This document shows, piece by piece, positions 1,622 to 11,393 of a stretch of 64,000 nt of DNA. Origin of the DNA: Ahrensia sp. (lineage in GTDB: Bacteria; Pseudomonadota; Alphaproteobacteria; Rhizobiales; Rhizobiaceae). The stretch covers positions 39,693 to 103,692 of the forward strand of contig PAKZ01000012.1 in assembly GCA_002706335.1 (NCBI GenBank), read 5' to 3'. Within the stretch, counting starts at the first letter, position 1. Every line of letters starts with the position of its first letter. The position numbers and the translations under genes are program-made. The notes under the pieces were generated by a model, which was not told the origin of the DNA, made no database searches, and saw nothing but the letters and a program-made list of their open reading frames with translations.

Positions 1622-3187
1622 TCAGGCGTTGCGAACCGGATCGAGCGTCACCGTGTAGAGCTCGGCATCGTCGCGATCCATCAGCCGCACTGTGAACTGC
1701 TCGGTCGCGCCGTCGATCTCGACGAGGCCGAAGAACTGCAGACCCATGGAGGGCGGGAGGTTGACGCCCTGCTCGGCGGTCGGCGCCTTCACGAACTTCA
1801 ACTCCGGACCGAAGGTCATGTCGATATCGTTCGGACCGAAGGTGCCGGCATGAAGCGGACCGGATACGAATTCCCAGAAGGGCGCGAAATCCTGGAACTG
1901 CGCCTTGTCCGGATTGTAATAATGCGCCGCGGTGTAGTGCACGTCGGCGGTCAGCCACACCGTGTTGGCGATGCCGGCCGTCTTGATGAAACGCAGCAGG
2001 TCGGCGATCTCGAACTCACGGCCCTTCGCCGGCCCGTCATCGGCATTGGCGATCGCCTCGAACTTCTCCCCGTCGCGTACGACAAGCCCGATCGGCATGT
2101 CTGCGGCGATGACTTTCCATGTCGCCTTCGAATTGGTCAGCTCGCGCTTCAGCCATTCGATCTGCTGACGTCCGAGGAACGCGGTCGCGTCGCTCTGCTC
2201 CGCCTGCAGATTGTCGCTGTTCGGGCCGCGATAGGTGCGCATGTCGAGGAAGAAGACATCCAGCATCGGACCGTAGGCGATCTTGCGATAAACGCGGCCC
2301 GGCTCGGCCGGCGTGTAGGAGATCGGCGTCATTTCGTGGAAAGCGCGGCCCGAGCGGGCGCGCAGCACATCGATCGATTTCACGGAATAGCGGTCATCGC
2401 CGGAAAGATCCTTGGAGGAAGACCAGTTGTTGACCACTTCATGATCGTCCCACTGGAAGAAGGTCGGACAGATCGCGTTCATCGCGCGCACATGCTCATC
2501 CATCAGGTTGTATTTCCACTGGCCCCGGAACTCGTCCAGCGTCTCGGCAACCTTGCGCTTCTCGTCGATCAGCACCTTGTTGACCCACTTGTTGCCGTCT
2601 TTCAGCTCGACCTCGTCGGTCATCGCGCCGTCGGCATAGATCGTATCGCCGGAATGCAGGAAGAAGTCGGGCGCGTGCTTCGCCATGGTGGCATAGGTCT
2701 TCATGCCCTCGTCGTCGATGCCCCATCCCTGGCCGGCGGTGTCACCCGACCATGCGAACTTGATCGACCGCCTGGAAGTCGGCGCGGTGCGGAAACGGCC
2801 GATGATCGGCTCGGACACCGCATTGACGTCGGAGAGATCCTGCGCGGTCATGCGGTAGAAGATGTCCTGATCGGAGGGCAGGCCCTCGATGAGGCGCTTC
2901 ACAGCGAAATCGCTTTCCGGCAGCGCGTCGAGCGTGGCCAGCTTGCGCGCATTCTTGAAGCTTTCCGAGGTCGCAACCTCGAACAACACCCGCGACGGGC
3001 GGTCCGTACGCGTCCAGATCATGCCCGACACGGCGTCGACATCGCCCGACTGGACGCCATGGGTGAAGACCGGGCGCGAAGCGGCTCGCGAATAGAAGGG
3101 CATGGCAAGGCCGGAACCGGCAACCAGACCGGCGGCGCCGACACCGGACATGAAGCTGCGGCGCGACAGGGTGAGTGATTTTTTCAT
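1622..3187 (-). CDS. phoD: alkaline phosphatase D family phosphodiesterase, Tat-exported
   Basis: The 521-residue product starts MKKSLTLSRRSFMSGVGAAG: a twin-arginine motif (SRRSFM) before a hydrophobic segment, so it should be exported folded through Tat. PhoD-type metal-ligand motifs are visible in order: WSGDTAGQG and LHSGDTIYADG (about 150-200), FFQWDDHEVVNNW (about 265), and WLTADVHYTAAHYYNP near 420. Known PhoD enzymes use Ca2+ and Fe3+ to release phosphate from phosphodiesters such as teichoic acids or nucleic acids. The ATG at 3185-3187 is preceded by GGAGATC; the frame extends 26 codons further upstream but that part has no signal character. The gene stands alone, with its own terminator. 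I found no convincing Pho box upstream. Confidence 0.9.
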   Translation of the reverse strand: MKKSLTLSRRSFMSGVGAAGLVAGSGLAMPFYSRAASRPVFTHGVQSGDVDAVSGMIWTRTDRPSRVLFEVATSESFKNARKLATLDALPESDFAVKRLIEGLPSDQDIFYRMTAQDLSDVNAVSEPIIGRFRTAPTSRRSIKFAWSGDTAGQGWGIDDEGMKTYATMAKHAPDFFLHSGDTIYADGAMTDEVELKDGNKWVNKVLIDEKRKVAETLDEFRGQWKYNLMDEHVRAMNAICPTFFQWDDHEVVNNWSSSKDLSGDDRYSVKSIDVLRARSGRAFHEMTPISYTPAEPGRVYRKIAYGPMLDVFFLDMRTYRGPNSDNLQAEQSDATAFLGRQQIEWLKRELTNSKATWKVIAADMPIGLVVRDGEKFEAIANADDGPAKGREFEIADLLRFIKTAGIANTVWLTADVHYTAAHYYNPDKAQFQDFAPFWEFVSGPLHAGTFGPNDIDMTFGPELKFVKAPTAEQGVNLPPSMGLQFFGLVEIDGATEQFTVRLMDRDDAELYTVTLDPVRNA

Positions 3188-3316
3188 GTGAGGATCTCCG
3201 TTAGGCGCACTCCGCGCCGGGGCGACACATCCTCTGCTTTCATGGCAGTCGTTTCTCGGCTGCATGAATTTTTGATAACCGTGCGATGACGATTGTGGGA
3301 AACCGCGGCAGGCCAG

Positions 3317-4717
3317 TCAGGCGGATGGGCGGAACCGGTCTATCTCGCCGTTTCGATAGAAGAGATTGTAGGTCTCGAACGGAATGATCTGCCCGGCCGG
3401 CGTGACGAAATGGACGCAGGATCGCTTGACGTTGCCGACGCAGAAGTCGAACCGGTCCATGAAATTCGAGACCACGACACGGAAGACGTTTTCATAGCCG
3501 AGCCCTTCGGGCACGGCGACCTGCGGCAGACAGCACAGGAGATCGCCAAAGCGCTGCGCCGCGTTCGGCTCGATGGTCGACAGCGAAAACAATTCAAAGA
3601 TGCGCTCGCGCAGCATGGGATAGCGCTCGAAGGTGAGCGCGTTGGGCAGTTCGGCGACCAGCTCGTCCTTCGGGATCATCGACGTGACCGGCACGACCTG
3701 TTCGCCGTTTCGCAAGCCGTACCCGATGGAAATCGCGGTCGGATTGCAGGGCAGCGGGATCATGTCACTCTCGCCGAAAATGCCGCTGTCCTCGATGATC
3801 CGGCGGCGAATGTCGGTGAGCAGAATCCTGTCTGTCTTCGGGTCGAAATCCAGATTGCGCCCGGCATCCTGGATCGGCTGGAAGGTGACGCCGCGAACGC
3901 AGCGATATTTCAGGGCATGCGCGATGATGTCGCCCATCTCGTCGTCATTGACGCCCTTCTTCACCGTGCAGACCAGCGTCGTGGAAATGCCGCGTTGCTC
4001 CAGCGCCTCCAGCGCATTGCGCCGAACCTTGGAAAGATCCGCGCCGCGCAATGCGCGCAGCGCGTCCGGGCGCAGCGAATCGAATTGCAGATAGATCTCG
4101 AGCCCGCGCCGCCGCTCGGCCAGCGCGTCGGCAAAAGCCGGGTCGGTGGCGATGCGAAGTCCGTTCGTATTGATCATCAGATGCCGGATCGGCCGCTCGC
4201 GCGCCATGTCGACGATCGTCAGGATGTCCGGATGGATGGTCGGCTCGCCGCCGGAGAGTTGCAGGAGATCCGGCTCGCCCTCGCTCGCCACGAGCGCATT
4301 CATCATTCGGCCGATCGTCGCAAGATCGAGCTGTTTGGTCGCCTGTTGCGAGGAGCCGGCGAAACAGACCGGACAGGTCAGGTTGCAGGCCTCGTTGACC
4401 TCGATGATGGCAAGGCAGGAATGCTGCTCGTGGTCGGGACACAGCCCGCAATCATAGGGGCAGCCGAAATCCGTCCGGGTCTGGACGTCCAGCGGCCGGT
4501 CGCCGGGTTTCAGGAACGACAGTTCCGCCTTGTAATAGGCGGCATCCGACGAGATCCTCGTCATCTGCACCCCGTGCTCGCGGCAGCGCTTCTGGTACCA
4601 GACGTCGTCGCCGTCGATCAGGATCTTCGTCGGTACGAGCTTCAGGCAGGTCTCGCACAGCGACTGGGTCTGCCCGTGAAACAGATAGGGCCGCGATTTG
4701 CGTAAGGGTGCGTTCAT
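3317..4717 (-). CDS. radical SAM enzyme with N-terminal Cys-rich domain, tetraether-synthase (Tes) type
   Basis: The 466-residue product has CETC (21-24) and KRC (45), probably a small zinc or Fe-S module. Then come two CX3CX2C motifs in a row: CPYDCGLC (86-93) and CNLTCPVC (111-118). The second fits the canonical radical SAM cluster and is followed by FAGSS. Further features are a GGEPTIHPD segment, and near the C-terminus SCVHF with an AGQIIPFETYNLFYR tail. As I remember it, this layout (CP.DCGLC, short spacer, CNL.CP.CFA, Cys-rich tail ending IPF.TYN) is that of the archaeal MJ0619/Tes family, which couples lipid alkyl chains or alkylates pterins using extra Fe-S clusters. Start ATG at 4715-4717 has GGAGGGG upstream and lies one base after the stop of the preceding gene, so it is the last gene of a four-gene operon. 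Substrate unknown; a lipid is inferred from context. Confidence 0.82.
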   Translation of the reverse strand: MNAPLRKSRPYLFHGQTQSLCETCLKLVPTKILIDGDDVWYQKRCREHGVQMTRISSDAAYYKAELSFLKPGDRPLDVQTRTDFGCPYDCGLCPDHEQHSCLAIIEVNEACNLTCPVCFAGSSQQATKQLDLATIGRMMNALVASEGEPDLLQLSGGEPTIHPDILTIVDMARERPIRHLMINTNGLRIATDPAFADALAERRRGLEIYLQFDSLRPDALRALRGADLSKVRRNALEALEQRGISTTLVCTVKKGVNDDEMGDIIAHALKYRCVRGVTFQPIQDAGRNLDFDPKTDRILLTDIRRRIIEDSGIFGESDMIPLPCNPTAISIGYGLRNGEQVVPVTSMIPKDELVAELPNALTFERYPMLRERIFELFSLSTIEPNAAQRFGDLLCCLPQVAVPEGLGYENVFRVVVSNFMDRFDFCVGNVKRSCVHFVTPAGQIIPFETYNLFYRNGEIDRFRPSA

Positions 4718-4718
4718 G

Positions 4719-4901
4719 TCAGCCCCTCCAGGCCTTGCGCAGCAATACGAAACCGCCCCACGCGACGGCGAAAGTCCCGAGCCAGAGAAGCCACAAAGGA
4801 CCGGCTCCGTTGCTTCCGAACGTGCCCATGAAGATGACACTGCAGACGCCCGGAAGGAGCAGCAGCACGCCGATGATGCCGAGCACAACTCGTGCGATCA
4901 T
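4719..4901 (-). CDS. small two-helix membrane protein, paralogue of the next upstream gene
   Basis: The 60-residue product has two hydrophobic segments (about 4-25 and 35-53) separated by a short Gly/Asn-rich loop, with a basic C-terminus (LLRKAWRG). The first helix contains LLLPGVCS. The neighbouring 86-residue protein has the same LLLPGVC, preceded by a similar LGI.G pattern, so the two look like related members of one small family. GAGGAAG lies at the right distance before the ATG at 4899-4901. The stop is one base from the start of the radical SAM gene. I do not recognise a named family. The invariant Cys and Pro in the membrane segment may matter. A structural or partner role for the Lgt-like or radical SAM protein is only an inference. 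Confidence 0.7.
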   Translation of the reverse strand: MIARVVLGIIGVLLLLPGVCSVIFMGTFGSNGAGPLWLLWLGTFAVAWGGFVLLRKAWRG

Positions 4902-4949
4902 GAATGTCTTCCTCGTGACCCGTCGCGACTTTGACGGGCTGACACCTTG

Positions 4950-5210
4950 TCAGCCATTGCCTTCGCGCGCCTTTCGGATAACCCGCCGCAGGAGCCAGAA
5001 GCCGAGCACGCCGACGAGAAGGCTCGGGATCGAAAACACATAGACGGCGCCCATATAGGGATCCTTCGGGTTCGCCAGCGCGATCACGGTGAATGCGGCA
5101 CCGCAAACACCGGGCAAAAGCAGGAACGCGCCGAGAATGCCAAGCAGGGCCAGCCCGAATCGCCTCGGTCCGCCACGCGGCTCGCCGCCCTCGCCATTGT
5201 CCATATACAT
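4950..5210 (-). CDS. small membrane protein with LLLPGVC motif
   Basis: The 86-residue product has a polar Gly/Arg-rich N-terminus (about 18 residues), two hydrophobic segments (about 19-45 and 55-75) and a basic tail (RRVIRKAREGNG). The first helix carries LGILGAFLLLPGVCGAAF, closely similar to the 60-residue protein encoded downstream. An alternative ATG two codons in (5202-5204) is equally possible; the upstream sequence GGGTTTCGG is a weak ribosome site for either. It sits 48 bases before the next small gene and 76 bases after the Lgt-like gene, all in one direction. Function unknown. Confidence 0.65.
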   Translation of the reverse strand: MYMDNGEGGEPRGGPRRFGLALLGILGAFLLLPGVCGAAFTVIALANPKDPYMGAVYVFSIPSLLVGVLGFWLLRRVIRKAREGNG

Positions 5211-5286
5211 TGCCGAAACCCGTTATCGTTGAGCACCGAACCGCCGACTAGATCATGCCGTTTGCCGTCTCACAAGAAGCGCGGCG

Positions 5287-6000
5287 TCACGGCCTCTGGA
5301 GCATGGCCGCACGCTCCGCTGTGACAGCCATCACAAGCGCATAACCGAGCAACACGATGGATAGGAACTGGAAGACGGTCAGCCCGGCAACCAATGCGCC
5401 ATAGGGCTTCCAGAATTCGATGACGAAACGCTGCACAGCGTAGAAGCCGACGGCGTAATAAAAGCCGTCCCGCTTCCACCGCGCCGACCCGGTTGCGACC
5501 ATGGCGACATAAACCAGCGCGAAGCCGGCCATGGCGAGGCTTTCGTAGAGCTGAACCGGGTGACGCAGGACGCCGTCGCCGAAATCCCAGCCCCAATCTG
5601 CGCCCGTCGCGATGCCGTGCGTGTTGTCCACCAGTCCGGAGAGAAGGCAGCCAATGCGCCCGACGGCGATGCCGAGCGCCATCGGCAGTGCGTAGATCGC
5701 GCCGGTGCGGACCGTGATCCCGGATGCGCGCTTGTAGATCTCGATCGCGGCGACGGCGCCGACAATCGCCCCCTCGATGGAGCGGCCAAATCCGCCGATA
5801 CCGGAAACCCAGAGATTGAGCGTTCCGAACAGCCAAGCGCCGGCCCCTGCGCCGAACAGCACGCCGACGAGATAGCCAAAGCGCAGATGCTTTTCGACCG
5901 GCCGTTCGGAAAACCAGGTCCGGCGCAAAAGCAAAAGGGCCGTCAAGGAGACGGCCCATGCAAGAAAGTCGAACAGGGCATGTATTGCCGGAAACGACAT
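5287..6000 (-). CDS. Lgt-superfamily integral membrane protein (diacylglyceryl transferase-like)
   Basis: The 237-residue product is almost entirely hydrophobic, with about six or seven membrane segments. It shares with prolipoprotein diacylglyceryl transferase (Lgt) a GRIG motif (114-117), RHPVQLYESL (146-155) and the overall helix order. Lgt moves diacylglycerol from phosphatidylglycerol to the lipobox cysteine. Two features differ from what I recall of Lgt: the usual GRIGNF.N reads GRIGCLLSG here, and the conserved HGG region reads GRSIEGA, so residues known to be needed in E. coli Lgt (His103, Asn146) appear absent. It is also shorter than true Lgt. The start is the ATG at 5998-6000. This is unlikely to be the housekeeping lgt. 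It heads the operon with the small membrane proteins and the radical SAM gene, and begins 28 bases after the rpsP stop. Confidence 0.75.
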   Translation of the reverse strand: MSFPAIHALFDFLAWAVSLTALLLLRRTWFSERPVEKHLRFGYLVGVLFGAGAGAWLFGTLNLWVSGIGGFGRSIEGAIVGAVAAIEIYKRASGITVRTGAIYALPMALGIAVGRIGCLLSGLVDNTHGIATGADWGWDFGDGVLRHPVQLYESLAMAGFALVYVAMVATGSARWKRDGFYYAVGFYAVQRFVIEFWKPYGALVAGLTVFQFLSIVLLGYALVMAVTAERAAMLQRP

Positions 6001-9177: not shown

Positions 9178-10215
9178 ATGACAGACACGCTCCCCGATTC
9201 CCGAAAAGCCGTCACAAAGACCAGCGGCTCGAACCGCTATTACAACGGCCCGCTCTCCGACCATTTCGACGGGACCATCTTTTTCAATCCCGGCGGCACG
9301 CCCCCGCCGGGTTTCATGTCCCTTCTGCGCTGGCAATTCGGATCGGGCAAGACCGCATGGCCGGCCCACTATCCAAGCCCGCATGACGATCACGTTCCCG
9401 ACGAACGCGTCGAGGGAACAGCACTGCGCATCACCATGATCGGCCATGCCAGCCTGCTCTTGCAGACTGCAGGGCTGAACATCCTGTTCGATCCGGTCTT
9501 TGCCGACCGCGCCAGCCCGGTGCAATGGTTCGGGCCGAAACGGCGCAATCCGCCCGGCATAAGGTTCGAGAACCTTCCGCCGATCGACGCGGTTTTGGTC
9601 AGCCACAATCATTACGACCATCTCGATCTGGCGGCGCTGAAACGTCTCGCCCGCGAGCACGATCCGCTCTTCGTGACCCCGCTCGGCAACGACAGGATTA
9701 TCCGCGATGCGGCCGATTCGACGCGGATCGTCACCGGCGACTGGAGCGACATGATCGCGCTCTCGCAGGAGGTTACGGCGCATTTCGAGCCGGTGCATCA
9801 CTGGTCGGCGCGTGGCAGCACCGACCGGCGCATGGCGCTCTGGGCCGGCTTTGTCATCGAGACGCCTGGCGGCAAGATCTACCATGTCGGCGACACCGGC
9901 TTTCACGACGGCATCAATTACCGCAACGCGGCGGAGAAACACGGATCGTTCCGGCTAGCCATCCTGCCGATCGGGGCCTATGAACCGCGCTGGTTCATGA
10001 CGCCACAGCACCAGAACCCGGATGAGGCCGTGCGCGGCCACAAGCTCTGTAATGCGGCGCATACCGCCGGGCACCACTGGGGCACGTTCAATCTGACCGA
10101 TGAAGGCATCGAAGACCCGCTGACTGCGCTGGAGGAAGCGCTCGAAAGGCACGAAGTCGCGCCCGAAACTTTCCGGCCGCTGCGCCCCGGCGAAGCCTGG
10201 GACGTGCCTTTTTAG
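9178..10215 (+). CDS. MBL-fold metal-dependent hydrolase, NAPE-PLD-like
   Basis: The 345-residue product has the metallo-beta-lactamase motif SHNHYDHLD (about 141-149), later His residues in HFEPVHHWSARG, a metal-ligand Asp in YHVGDTGFHDG, and NAAHTAGHHWGTF near the C-terminus. The N-terminal half (YYNGPLSDHFDGTIFFNPGG) and IGHASLLLQTAGLNILFDPVF match the branch containing N-acyl-phosphatidylethanolamine phospholipase D and bacterial relatives. Such enzymes use two zinc ions to cut phosphodiester or related bonds. No signal peptide is visible. It stands alone; the start follows a divergent spacing from the ffh leader. The lipid substrate is inferred from family. Confidence 0.85.
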   Translation: MTDTLPDSRKAVTKTSGSNRYYNGPLSDHFDGTIFFNPGGTPPPGFMSLLRWQFGSGKTAWPAHYPSPHDDHVPDERVEGTALRITMIGHASLLLQTAGLNILFDPVFADRASPVQWFGPKRRNPPGIRFENLPPIDAVLVSHNHYDHLDLAALKRLAREHDPLFVTPLGNDRIIRDAADSTRIVTGDWSDMIALSQEVTAHFEPVHHWSARGSTDRRMALWAGFVIETPGGKIYHVGDTGFHDGINYRNAAEKHGSFRLAILPIGAYEPRWFMTPQHQNPDEAVRGHKLCNAAHTAGHHWGTFNLTDEGIEDPLTALEEALERHEVAPETFRPLRPGEAWDVPF

Positions 10216-10322
10216 CGCCGCAACCTCGCTCCATAAGGTCGCATCGCATGAAAATGCTGGTAACGGGGGAGAAAATCCCCCATTTCGGTATGCGGGAGGC
10301 GTAAGCAACGGCGCTTCCGGCT

Positions 10323-11393
10323 ATGAAGATATCAGAAAGAAAGCCGTACCGTTTGTCACAGATCGAAACCGCCGCCGGCTCCGCCGGGAAAGATGCGCGC
10401 GCGTGGGCAAAGACCATCGCCGCCTATAACCAGCCCTCGAATGCGCGAGGCGCTCTCGAATTCGCGGTTTCGCTGCTGCCTTTTGCCCTCCTCTGGGCGG
10501 CCATGGCCGTTCTGCTATCATACGGATACTGGATCGGCCTGATCCTGGTGGTGCCCGCGGCCGGCTTTCTGGTCCGCCTGTTCATGATCCAGCACGATTG
10601 CGGGCATGGCGCTTTTTTCCGCAACAGCCACGCCAATGACTGGGTCGGCCGGGCCGTCGGCGTCATGACGCTAACGCCCTATTCCGTCTGGAAGCGCACC
10701 CATGCGCTGCATCACGCGGGCTCCGGCTGCCTGGACCATCGCGGATTCGGCGAGATCGCCACGCTGACCGTCGAGGAATACAAGGCGCTGTCGCCATGGA
10801 AGCGGTTCAAATACCGGTTCTACCGGCATCCGCTCGTGCTGTTCGGCGTCGGGCCTGCTTTTATCTTCATGCTCGATCATCGCCTGCCCACCGGCATGAT
10901 GCGCCGCGGCTGGCAGCCATGGATTTCCACCATGGGCACCAATCTGGCCCTCGCCGCGCTGGTGGCGGCGCTGATCTGGCTGGTTGGCTGGAAGGTCTTC
11001 CTTCTCATCCAGTTGCCGGTCACGCTGATCGCGGCGACGGCTGGGGTCTGGTTGTTCTTCGTCCAGCACCAGTTCGAGGAAACATCCTGGGAACGGCTGC
11101 CCGAATGGCAGCGCCAGCACGCCGCCCTGCACGGCTCGTCACATTACGACCTGCCGCAGCCGCTGCGCTGGTTCACCGGTAATATCGGCATCCACCACGT
11201 CCATCATCTGTCGGCGCGCATCCCCTTCTACCGGCTCGGCCGGGTGCTGCGCGACCATCCTGAACTGCGCGACATCAACCGCATGACGCTGCTCGACAGC
11301 CTGAAGACGATCCCGCTGGCGCTCTGGGACGAAACGCAGAGCCGCATGATCTCGTTTCGGGAGTTCCGGCGCAGTCGAATGGCGGCGGCATAG
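10323..11393 (+). CDS. membrane fatty acid desaturase
   Basis: The 356-residue product has the three His boxes of the FADS family: HDCGH (91-95), HALHH (127-131) and a C-terminal IGIHHVHHLS. Hydrophobic segments surround them. These bind a di-iron centre that inserts a double bond into an acyl chain, probably at the delta-12 or related position, in the inner membrane. A WLFFVQHQFEETSW segment between boxes 2 and 3 is typical of bacterial delta-12-like desaturases. The ATG at 10323 follows 107 bases of intergenic sequence after the hydrolase. The regioselectivity cannot be read from the sequence. Confidence 0.92.
   Translation: MKISERKPYRLSQIETAAGSAGKDARAWAKTIAAYNQPSNARGALEFAVSLLPFALLWAAMAVLLSYGYWIGLILVVPAAGFLVRLFMIQHDCGHGAFFRNSHANDWVGRAVGVMTLTPYSVWKRTHALHHAGSGCLDHRGFGEIATLTVEEYKALSPWKRFKYRFYRHPLVLFGVGPAFIFMLDHRLPTGMMRRGWQPWISTMGTNLALAALVAALIWLVGWKVFLLIQLPVTLIAATAGVWLFFVQHQFEETSWERLPEWQRQHAALHGSSHYDLPQPLRWFTGNIGIHHVHHLSARIPFYRLGRVLRDHPELRDINRMTLLDSLKTIPLALWDETQSRMISFREFRRSRMAAA

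Follow-up and report, generated by a model that had tools for sequence, protein, structure and literature searches.

In the stretch of 64,000 nucleotides analysed here (the window; Ahrensia sp., contig PAKZ01000012.1, positions 39,693 to 103,692), a cassette of four genes encodes an Lgt-like protein (LgtL), two small membrane proteins with a Gly-x-Cys motif and a Tes-like radical S-adenosylmethionine (SAM) enzyme (TesL). The cassette occurs in scattered bacteria of several phyla, including Pseudomonadota and Cyanobacteriota. Judged by sequence comparison, lgtL and tesL are linked, LgtL keeps the donor-lipid arginines of Lgt, TesL keeps most of the Tes metal ligands, and the Gly-x-Cys of the small proteins is nearly invariant; predicted models give the two enzymes the Lgt and Tes folds. 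We tentatively propose that LgtL puts a diacylglyceryl group on the cysteine of the small protein and that TesL then couples the lipid tails by a carbon-carbon bond. By analogy with Lgt and Tes, LgtL would transfer the diacylglyceryl group from phosphatidylglycerol, the acceptor would be the thiol of the Gly-x-Cys, and the lipidated small protein would remain uncleaved. TesL would strip hydrogen from the tail ends and couple the tails via an iron-sulphur-bound intermediate, like Tes, and the product would be a membrane protein bearing a macrocyclic or bilayer-spanning lipid anchor. A bolder form of this proposal, which we regard as rather unlikely, is that the cassette is a second dedicated bacterial lipidation pathway, in which LgtL lipidates an internal, uncleaved Cys of tiny hairpins and TesL welds the tails either to one another or to an opposite-leaflet lipid, so that proteins are stapled through the membrane.

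The linkage of lgtL and tesL was assessed on loci from one pattern scan of an 84,980-species genome collection, in which the best 80 of 223 tesL relatives were kept. lgtL was found upstream of tesL on the same strand at 73 of the 80 loci, and at 62 of these 73 the two genes overlap or are spaced by at most 250 bases. Two of the seven loci that have no upstream lgtL (L050 and L057) end at a contig end, and the other five are all cyanobacterial. In these five genomes, lgtL lies elsewhere (277-282 bits), and a second LGT match (58-69 bits) has canonical motifs in the four inspected. The genome of L050 contains a single LGT match (74 bits), canonical by its motifs, and a search of the genome of L057 found no LGT match.

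Co-occurrence was further determined in genomes drawn irrespective of the cassette, except for the window's genome and the centre G605, both of which were counted, with thresholds of E 1e-60 for tesL and E 1e-30 for lgtL; phylum names were taken from named relatives, and Alphaproteobacteria as the window's class is a reading of those relatives. Among 241 genomes of the window's class, tesL was matched in four and lgtL in three, and all three lgtL genes adjoin tesL. Among 397 genomes of Pseudomonadota, both genes were matched in the identical 14 genomes, on the same contig and within about 1 kb. Among 146 genomes of Cyanobacteriota, tesL was matched in seven and lgtL in six, all of them among the seven; the genes are adjacent in four of the six, seemingly split by a contig end at tesL in G641, and unlinked in G605. 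If the two genes were independent, the chance of such overlap would be about 4e-7 for the class (on three and three), 5e-26 for Pseudomonadota and 6e-10 for Cyanobacteriota, although the true values are less extreme because the surveyed genomes are related. The cassette is thinly spread, being present in about 1 to 5% of the surveyed genomes, and gene order varies among lineages while the cassette parts remain together. Given these counts, the arrangement is not due to chance, and the functional link drawn by an earlier sequence-only reading of the window was not refuted, since the genes lie mostly together, both in the locus set and in the three surveys, and not mostly apart.

The proteobacterial small proteins constitute a loose family (28% mean column identity) with two membrane helices by eye. 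Across the 36 aligned proteins, no residue is invariant except a Gly and the Cys that follows it two positions on. The family profile matches the window and 44 of the 80 loci; four of the matches listed, of which three belong to L016 and a truncated one to L044, have no motif. At L016:8609-9526, a single open frame contains three hairpin repeats of the family, with Gly-x-Cys present in one and lost in two. A motif scan was performed for open reading frames (ORFs) of 45-170 amino acids with a charge-free hydrophobic stretch of 16 residues ending in Gly-x-Cys; its criteria were fixed after the sequences had been inspected, and the opposite strand and distant sequence served as controls. The scan yielded 103 ORFs near lgtL-tesL on the same strand, distributed over 73 of the 80 loci, compared with one ORF on the opposite strand and four in 598 kb beyond. 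A single copy was present at 46 loci, two copies at 24 and three at 3. L006 and L048 are among the seven loci missed by the scan, and have one such protein by eye and by profile, respectively. The presence of one to three copies, with a loose sequence outside Gly and Cys, fits the role of an acceptor.

In the survey of 397 genomes, the family was matched in eight genomes, every one of them a cassette holder, with the match always beside tesL. At E 1e-5, the profile search left six of the 14 cassette genomes undetected, and an in-frame stop falls within two of its ten matched stretches. Five of the six were inspected: G248 and G586 have a Gly-x-Cys protein by the motif scan, a candidate is present in G570 and a weak hidden Markov model (HMM) match in G521, and no Gly-x-Cys small protein was found in G378 within the short flank searched. 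The cyanobacterial loci encode a different protein, with three or four hydrophobic stretches by eye, the last of which ends in Asn-Gly-x-Cys in most members; Gly-x-Cys is present in 27 of 29 matches. Downstream of tesL at most of the cyanobacterial loci L051-L083 there is a membrane protein family of 90-120 amino acids with Gly-x-Cys near the end, whose L052 member gave no Pfam or NCBIfam match. Weak Pfam matches of the proteobacterial small proteins comprised holin 3_6 in 10 of 36 (best E 1.9e-5), SieB and YmcE antitoxin, and those scored were under the cut-offs.

In 35 of 36 members of the proteobacterial family, the Cys follows the last Lys/Arg at a distance of 16-25 residues (mode 20). This distance is 16 or 17 residues in all 28 cyanobacterial proteins measured; for 16 lipoprotein-like neighbours, at least two of which are themselves Gly-x-Cys proteins, it is 10-25 residues (mode 13). 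As measured on these sequences, the Gly-x-Cys spacing overlaps that of lipoproteins but differs from it. In a lipobox, the Cys is preceded by Gly, Ala or Ser. The proteobacterial family departs from this rule, with Leu in 22 of 36 members, Gly, Ala or Ser in 8 of 36, and Val in both window proteins; the cyanobacterial family mostly follows it (GGC 9, GAC 7, GSC 5 and SAC 1 of 29). Since Leu, Val or Thr before the Cys makes a poor lipobox in most proteobacterial members, the small protein is predicted to be uncleaved. Its N- and C-terminal tails are basic and its loop is not, and the Cys would therefore face outward, the side of the Lgt active site. That site has been located at the outer side of the membrane (PMC4728403; this and the other papers cited by accession were available in part, and what is taken from them is limited to those parts).

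A radical SAM gene accompanied by short genes, at times in tandem, that encode an unvarying Cys also resembles peptide-maturation loci. TesL could then link the Cys, or another residue, of the small protein to a carbon of the peptide or of a lipid tail, with LgtL adding or positioning the lipid. The sulphur-carbon intermediate that Tes forms on a lipid tail (PMC9433317) speaks for such chemistry, but we judge this explanation improbable.

The predicted LgtL model has the Lgt fold, although plain Foldseek gave no match for it at E < 0.001 and the Lgt match emerged on a second structural comparison. The equivalents of Arg143 and Arg239 of Lgt are Arg116 and Arg192, which are kept in 48/48 LgtL and whose columns agree with canonical Lgt in three alignments; 23 positions in total are invariant over the 48 members, of which 12 alignment rows came from large protein searches. 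LgtL is nevertheless distinct from canonical Lgt. It has Lys at the position of Arg246, and the window protein scored 37.9 against a cut-off of 334 and 29.9 against 118.9 with the NCBIfam lgt equivalog models. In the tree, six canonical Lgt proteins of the window's genome and other cassette genomes form a separate clade (100/99); the branch uniting LgtL is weaker (84/44) and includes one very long, distant row, L088.

For TesL, the archaeal tetraether lipid synthase was by far the closest solved structure, and the overall Tes fold was seen in the predicted model. A best match to a non-lipid family, which would have severed the proposed link, was not what we found, though the top-scoring NCBIfam model is TrsS, a radical SAM (seleno)protein (NF045646; 298.4 bits, under the cut-off of 490), and the Tes equivalog gave 257.5 bits for the window protein, under the cut-off of 450. 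The rubredoxin, N-terminal cluster and radical-SAM ligands of Tes are retained, with C45, H48, C86, C90, C93, H96, C111, C115 and C118 present in 41/41 TesL and C21 and C24 in 39/41, with gaps in the other two. Compared with archaeal Tes (also named GDGT-MAS; MJ0619), TesL has a shorter C-terminal region with its own cysteines, Cys324, 395, 396 and 434, invariant in 41/41, and TesL is tied to LgtL and the Gly-x-Cys proteins. The sequence-only reading had the set modifying a membrane lipid or lipoprotein chain. Because the genes stay together and the closest structure is a tetraether lipid synthase, a lipid or lipid-anchor role is well founded; the more specific part of that claim, formation of a carbon-carbon bond or movement of a glycerolipid to a new acceptor, is one that we still infer.

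Tes uses free phospholipids and yields macrocyclic and spanning lipids (PMC9433317), and bacterial Tes homologues have been proposed to make branched tetraethers (PMC8941075). It is nearly as likely as our proposal, and as tentative, that TesL joins the tails of phospholipids into macrocyclic or spanning products, that LgtL serves to rebuild or transfer the diacylglyceryl headgroup, and that the Gly-x-Cys protein docks or presents the lipid. Upstream of lgtL, the related betaproteobacterial-type loci L060, L061, L063, L075 and L084 carry a 626-amino-acid fusion of a major facilitator superfamily (MFS) protein with an acyltransferase and an amidohydrolase-family gene (5/5), with an AMP-binding gene in 4/5; Pfam was run on one example of each, and the others were assigned by similarity groups. 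This upstream set looks like phospholipid remodelling; the fusion and the AMP-binding gene speak for the use of free phospholipids, and the set as a whole also fits protein lipidation. Free phospholipids would also lessen the problem of bringing the substrate from the outer to the inner face of the membrane. Such a pathway, however, offers no reason for an Lgt-type enzyme, and it leaves unaccounted for both the near-fixed Gly-x-Cys in two families that have no detectable homology and the one to three loosely conserved copies of the small protein.

Several points weigh against protein lipidation by LgtL and TesL. His103 of the Lgt HGGL motif is absent; position 77 of LgtL, in its column, is Glu in 16, Val in 14, Ala in 10, Leu in 6 and Ile in 2 of 48 members. 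The alignment to 5azb is weak at this column, but another alignment, with canonical Lgt, gives the same column, in which one canonical row has Gln. His103 is reported to be essential in E. coli Lgt and was placed by the authors at the acceptor-peptide site (PMC4728403); it is not fully conserved (PMC13251419). In addition, the position of Asn146 is Cys119 in 48/48 LgtL, compared with Asn in 6/6 canonical rows, and that of Tyr26 is His in 35/36 LgtL, with a gap in one; Asn146 and Tyr26 of Lgt have also been reported as essential. Given that Lgt-essential residues are changed, LgtL must bind its acceptor differently or have another activity. Lgt acts on the outer face and TesL is predicted to be cytosolic, and the proposal does not explain by which route lipid tails on an outward Cys would come to TesL. 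At the Met439 position of Tes, the 41 TesL have Val in 26, Ser in 7, Ile in 3, Met in 3, Thr in 1 and Leu in 1, though the Tes M439A variant remains active (PMC9433317); the Tyr459 position is Tyr in 0/41, and the window protein has Ser417 and Phe437 at these two positions. The C-terminal region 360-404 of TesL is poorly modelled, with 360-372 and 374-404 below a predicted local distance difference test (pLDDT) score of 50. No Gly-x-Cys small protein was found in L007, L053, L078 or L081, that of L083 has Ser-Ala-Cys, and homology of the cyanobacterial with the proteobacterial small protein was not supported (hhalign probability 0.9%). The cyanobacterial genome G615 has tesL but no lgtL match at E 1e-30. 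Finally, the correlation of LgtL with TesL distances (r 0.94, 35 loci), obtained without a third-gene control, is weak evidence.

The combination of Y26H and N146C seen in LgtL is also reported for MSMEG_5408, the second Lgt of Mycobacterium smegmatis (PMC13251419). N146C is reported there for divergent Lgt proteins, and low activity is presumed for MSMEG_5408, which among the literature matches listed was named in that paper only. The three altered positions would be expected if LgtL were a redundant or decaying second Lgt that lies beside TesL through positional history only. We consider this highly improbable: the invariant positions of LgtL are many (the 23 noted above), lgtL was matched only in tesL genomes in all three surveys, the parts stay together though gene order differs between lineages, and the ratio of nonsynonymous to synonymous substitution (dN/dS) between the window and the Oricola copy (L005) is 0.13 for lgtL. 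In the same comparison, dN/dS was 0.47 for small protein 1, 0.14 for small protein 2 and 0.07 for the radical SAM gene, and the small ORFs therefore behave as genes.

Two variant loci bear on the identity of the partner. The fourth tesL of the window's class (G169, L088) is distant (259 bits; TrsS model 245 and Tes model 178, both under cut-off), and its neighbours are an LGT-like protein, which itself reads GKIGC, and a pair of small membrane proteins with Gly-Thr-Cys; this locus hints that cassettes of this kind form a wider family. In L078, a Desulfovibrionaceae metagenome-assembled genome (MAG), the space between lgtL and tesL (4806-5998), occupied at other loci by the small membrane protein, contains two genes whose N-termini read as lipoprotein-like signals with a Cys; Pfam finds Sel1 repeats in one of them. 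These two cases suggest a Cys ending a membrane segment as the constant partner. Two other tesL matches, G297:C60 and G734:C1 (L133), each contain one in-frame stop, which may reflect a pseudogene, an assembly error or recoding.

Bacterial Tes homologues have been reported before, 456 of them in one study (PMC8941075) and in 281 bacterial MAGs in another (PMC11868695), their function being unproven. In some public sources, relatives of TesL already carry the name 'tetraether lipid synthase' or 'pterin dimethyltransferase', and those of LgtL the name 'prolipoprotein diacylglyceryl transferase'. Among the literature matches listed, seen as titles and abstract openings, no Lgt-like or Gly-x-Cys partner of Tes-type enzymes was found, and no report linking lgt with tetraethers or radical SAM enzymes; PMC8939145, considered as such a report, deals with lipobox-bearing proteins of graspetide loci. 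Among the nearest known systems is the bacterial Mss/Ger system for membrane-spanning lipids, whose Mss belongs to the radical SAM enzymes. Mss couples two bacterial fatty-acid tails (PMC11868695); the available description mentions no Lgt-like or Gly-x-Cys partner. LgtL and TesL are divergent members of known superfamilies, and the trio and the small-protein family appear new to us. One branch of bacterial Tes homologues is hereby tied to fixed partners, with the Gly-x-Cys protein and phosphatidylglycerol as candidate substrates, and the role of bacterial Tes becomes directly testable in cultured strains. For environmental surveys, bacterial Tes homologues should be taken with caution, as they are no proof of tetraether lipids.

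The window genes are listed below. Their order on one strand, with gaps of 76, 48 and 1 bases, and the LLLPGVC of both small proteins were read in the sequence as first described. The lgtL start was set at the ATG at 6000, where the ORF list begins instead at TTG 6003, and the tesL start at 4717 agrees with MxxRKxxPYLF, the consensus with which related proteins begin. Window proteins passed the Pfam cut-offs (in parentheses) of LGT with 63.3 bits (24.9), Radical_SAM with 75 bits (29.5) and Zn_ribbon_HMPTM with 56.8 bits (27); neither small protein matched a Pfam family over its cut-off.

Features of the lgtL-tesL cassette in the window
Feature	Position	Strand	Description
lgtL	5287..6000	-	Lgt-like integral membrane protein, 237 aa, seven predicted helices
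Small protein 1	4950..5210	-	Predicted two-helix membrane protein, 86 aa, Gly-x-Cys family (Gly34, Cys36); HMM E 9.5e-12
Cys36 codon, small protein 1	5103..5105	-	Putative acceptor Cys, 19 residues past last Lys/Arg; from sequence and family alignment
Small protein 2	4719..4901	-	Predicted two-helix membrane protein, 60 aa, Gly-x-Cys family (Gly18, Cys20); weak HMM E 0.0032
Cys20 codon, small protein 2	4842..4844	-	Putative acceptor Cys, 16 residues past last Lys/Arg; from sequence and family alignment
tesL	3317..4717	-	Tes-like enzyme of the radical SAM type, 466 aa; ligand sets for rubredoxin-type site, N-terminal cluster and radical-SAM cluster

rpsP lies 28 bases upstream of lgtL in the window. 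The ribosomal neighbourhood noted from the sequence alone thus exists here and in L005, but it is incidental, as L006 has another upstream gene. A KaiC-like ATPase, an HWE kinase, an ammonium transporter and a peptidase S41 upstream in some caulobacterial-type loci look like unrelated neighbours. Downstream of tesL, the window encodes a PhoD-type phosphatase with a Tat signal (1622-3190). An Inh-family protease inhibitor with an apparent lipoprotein signal, VSGC, is encoded at 822-1472. At 9178-11393, a metallo-beta-lactamase-fold protein adjoins a fatty acid desaturase.

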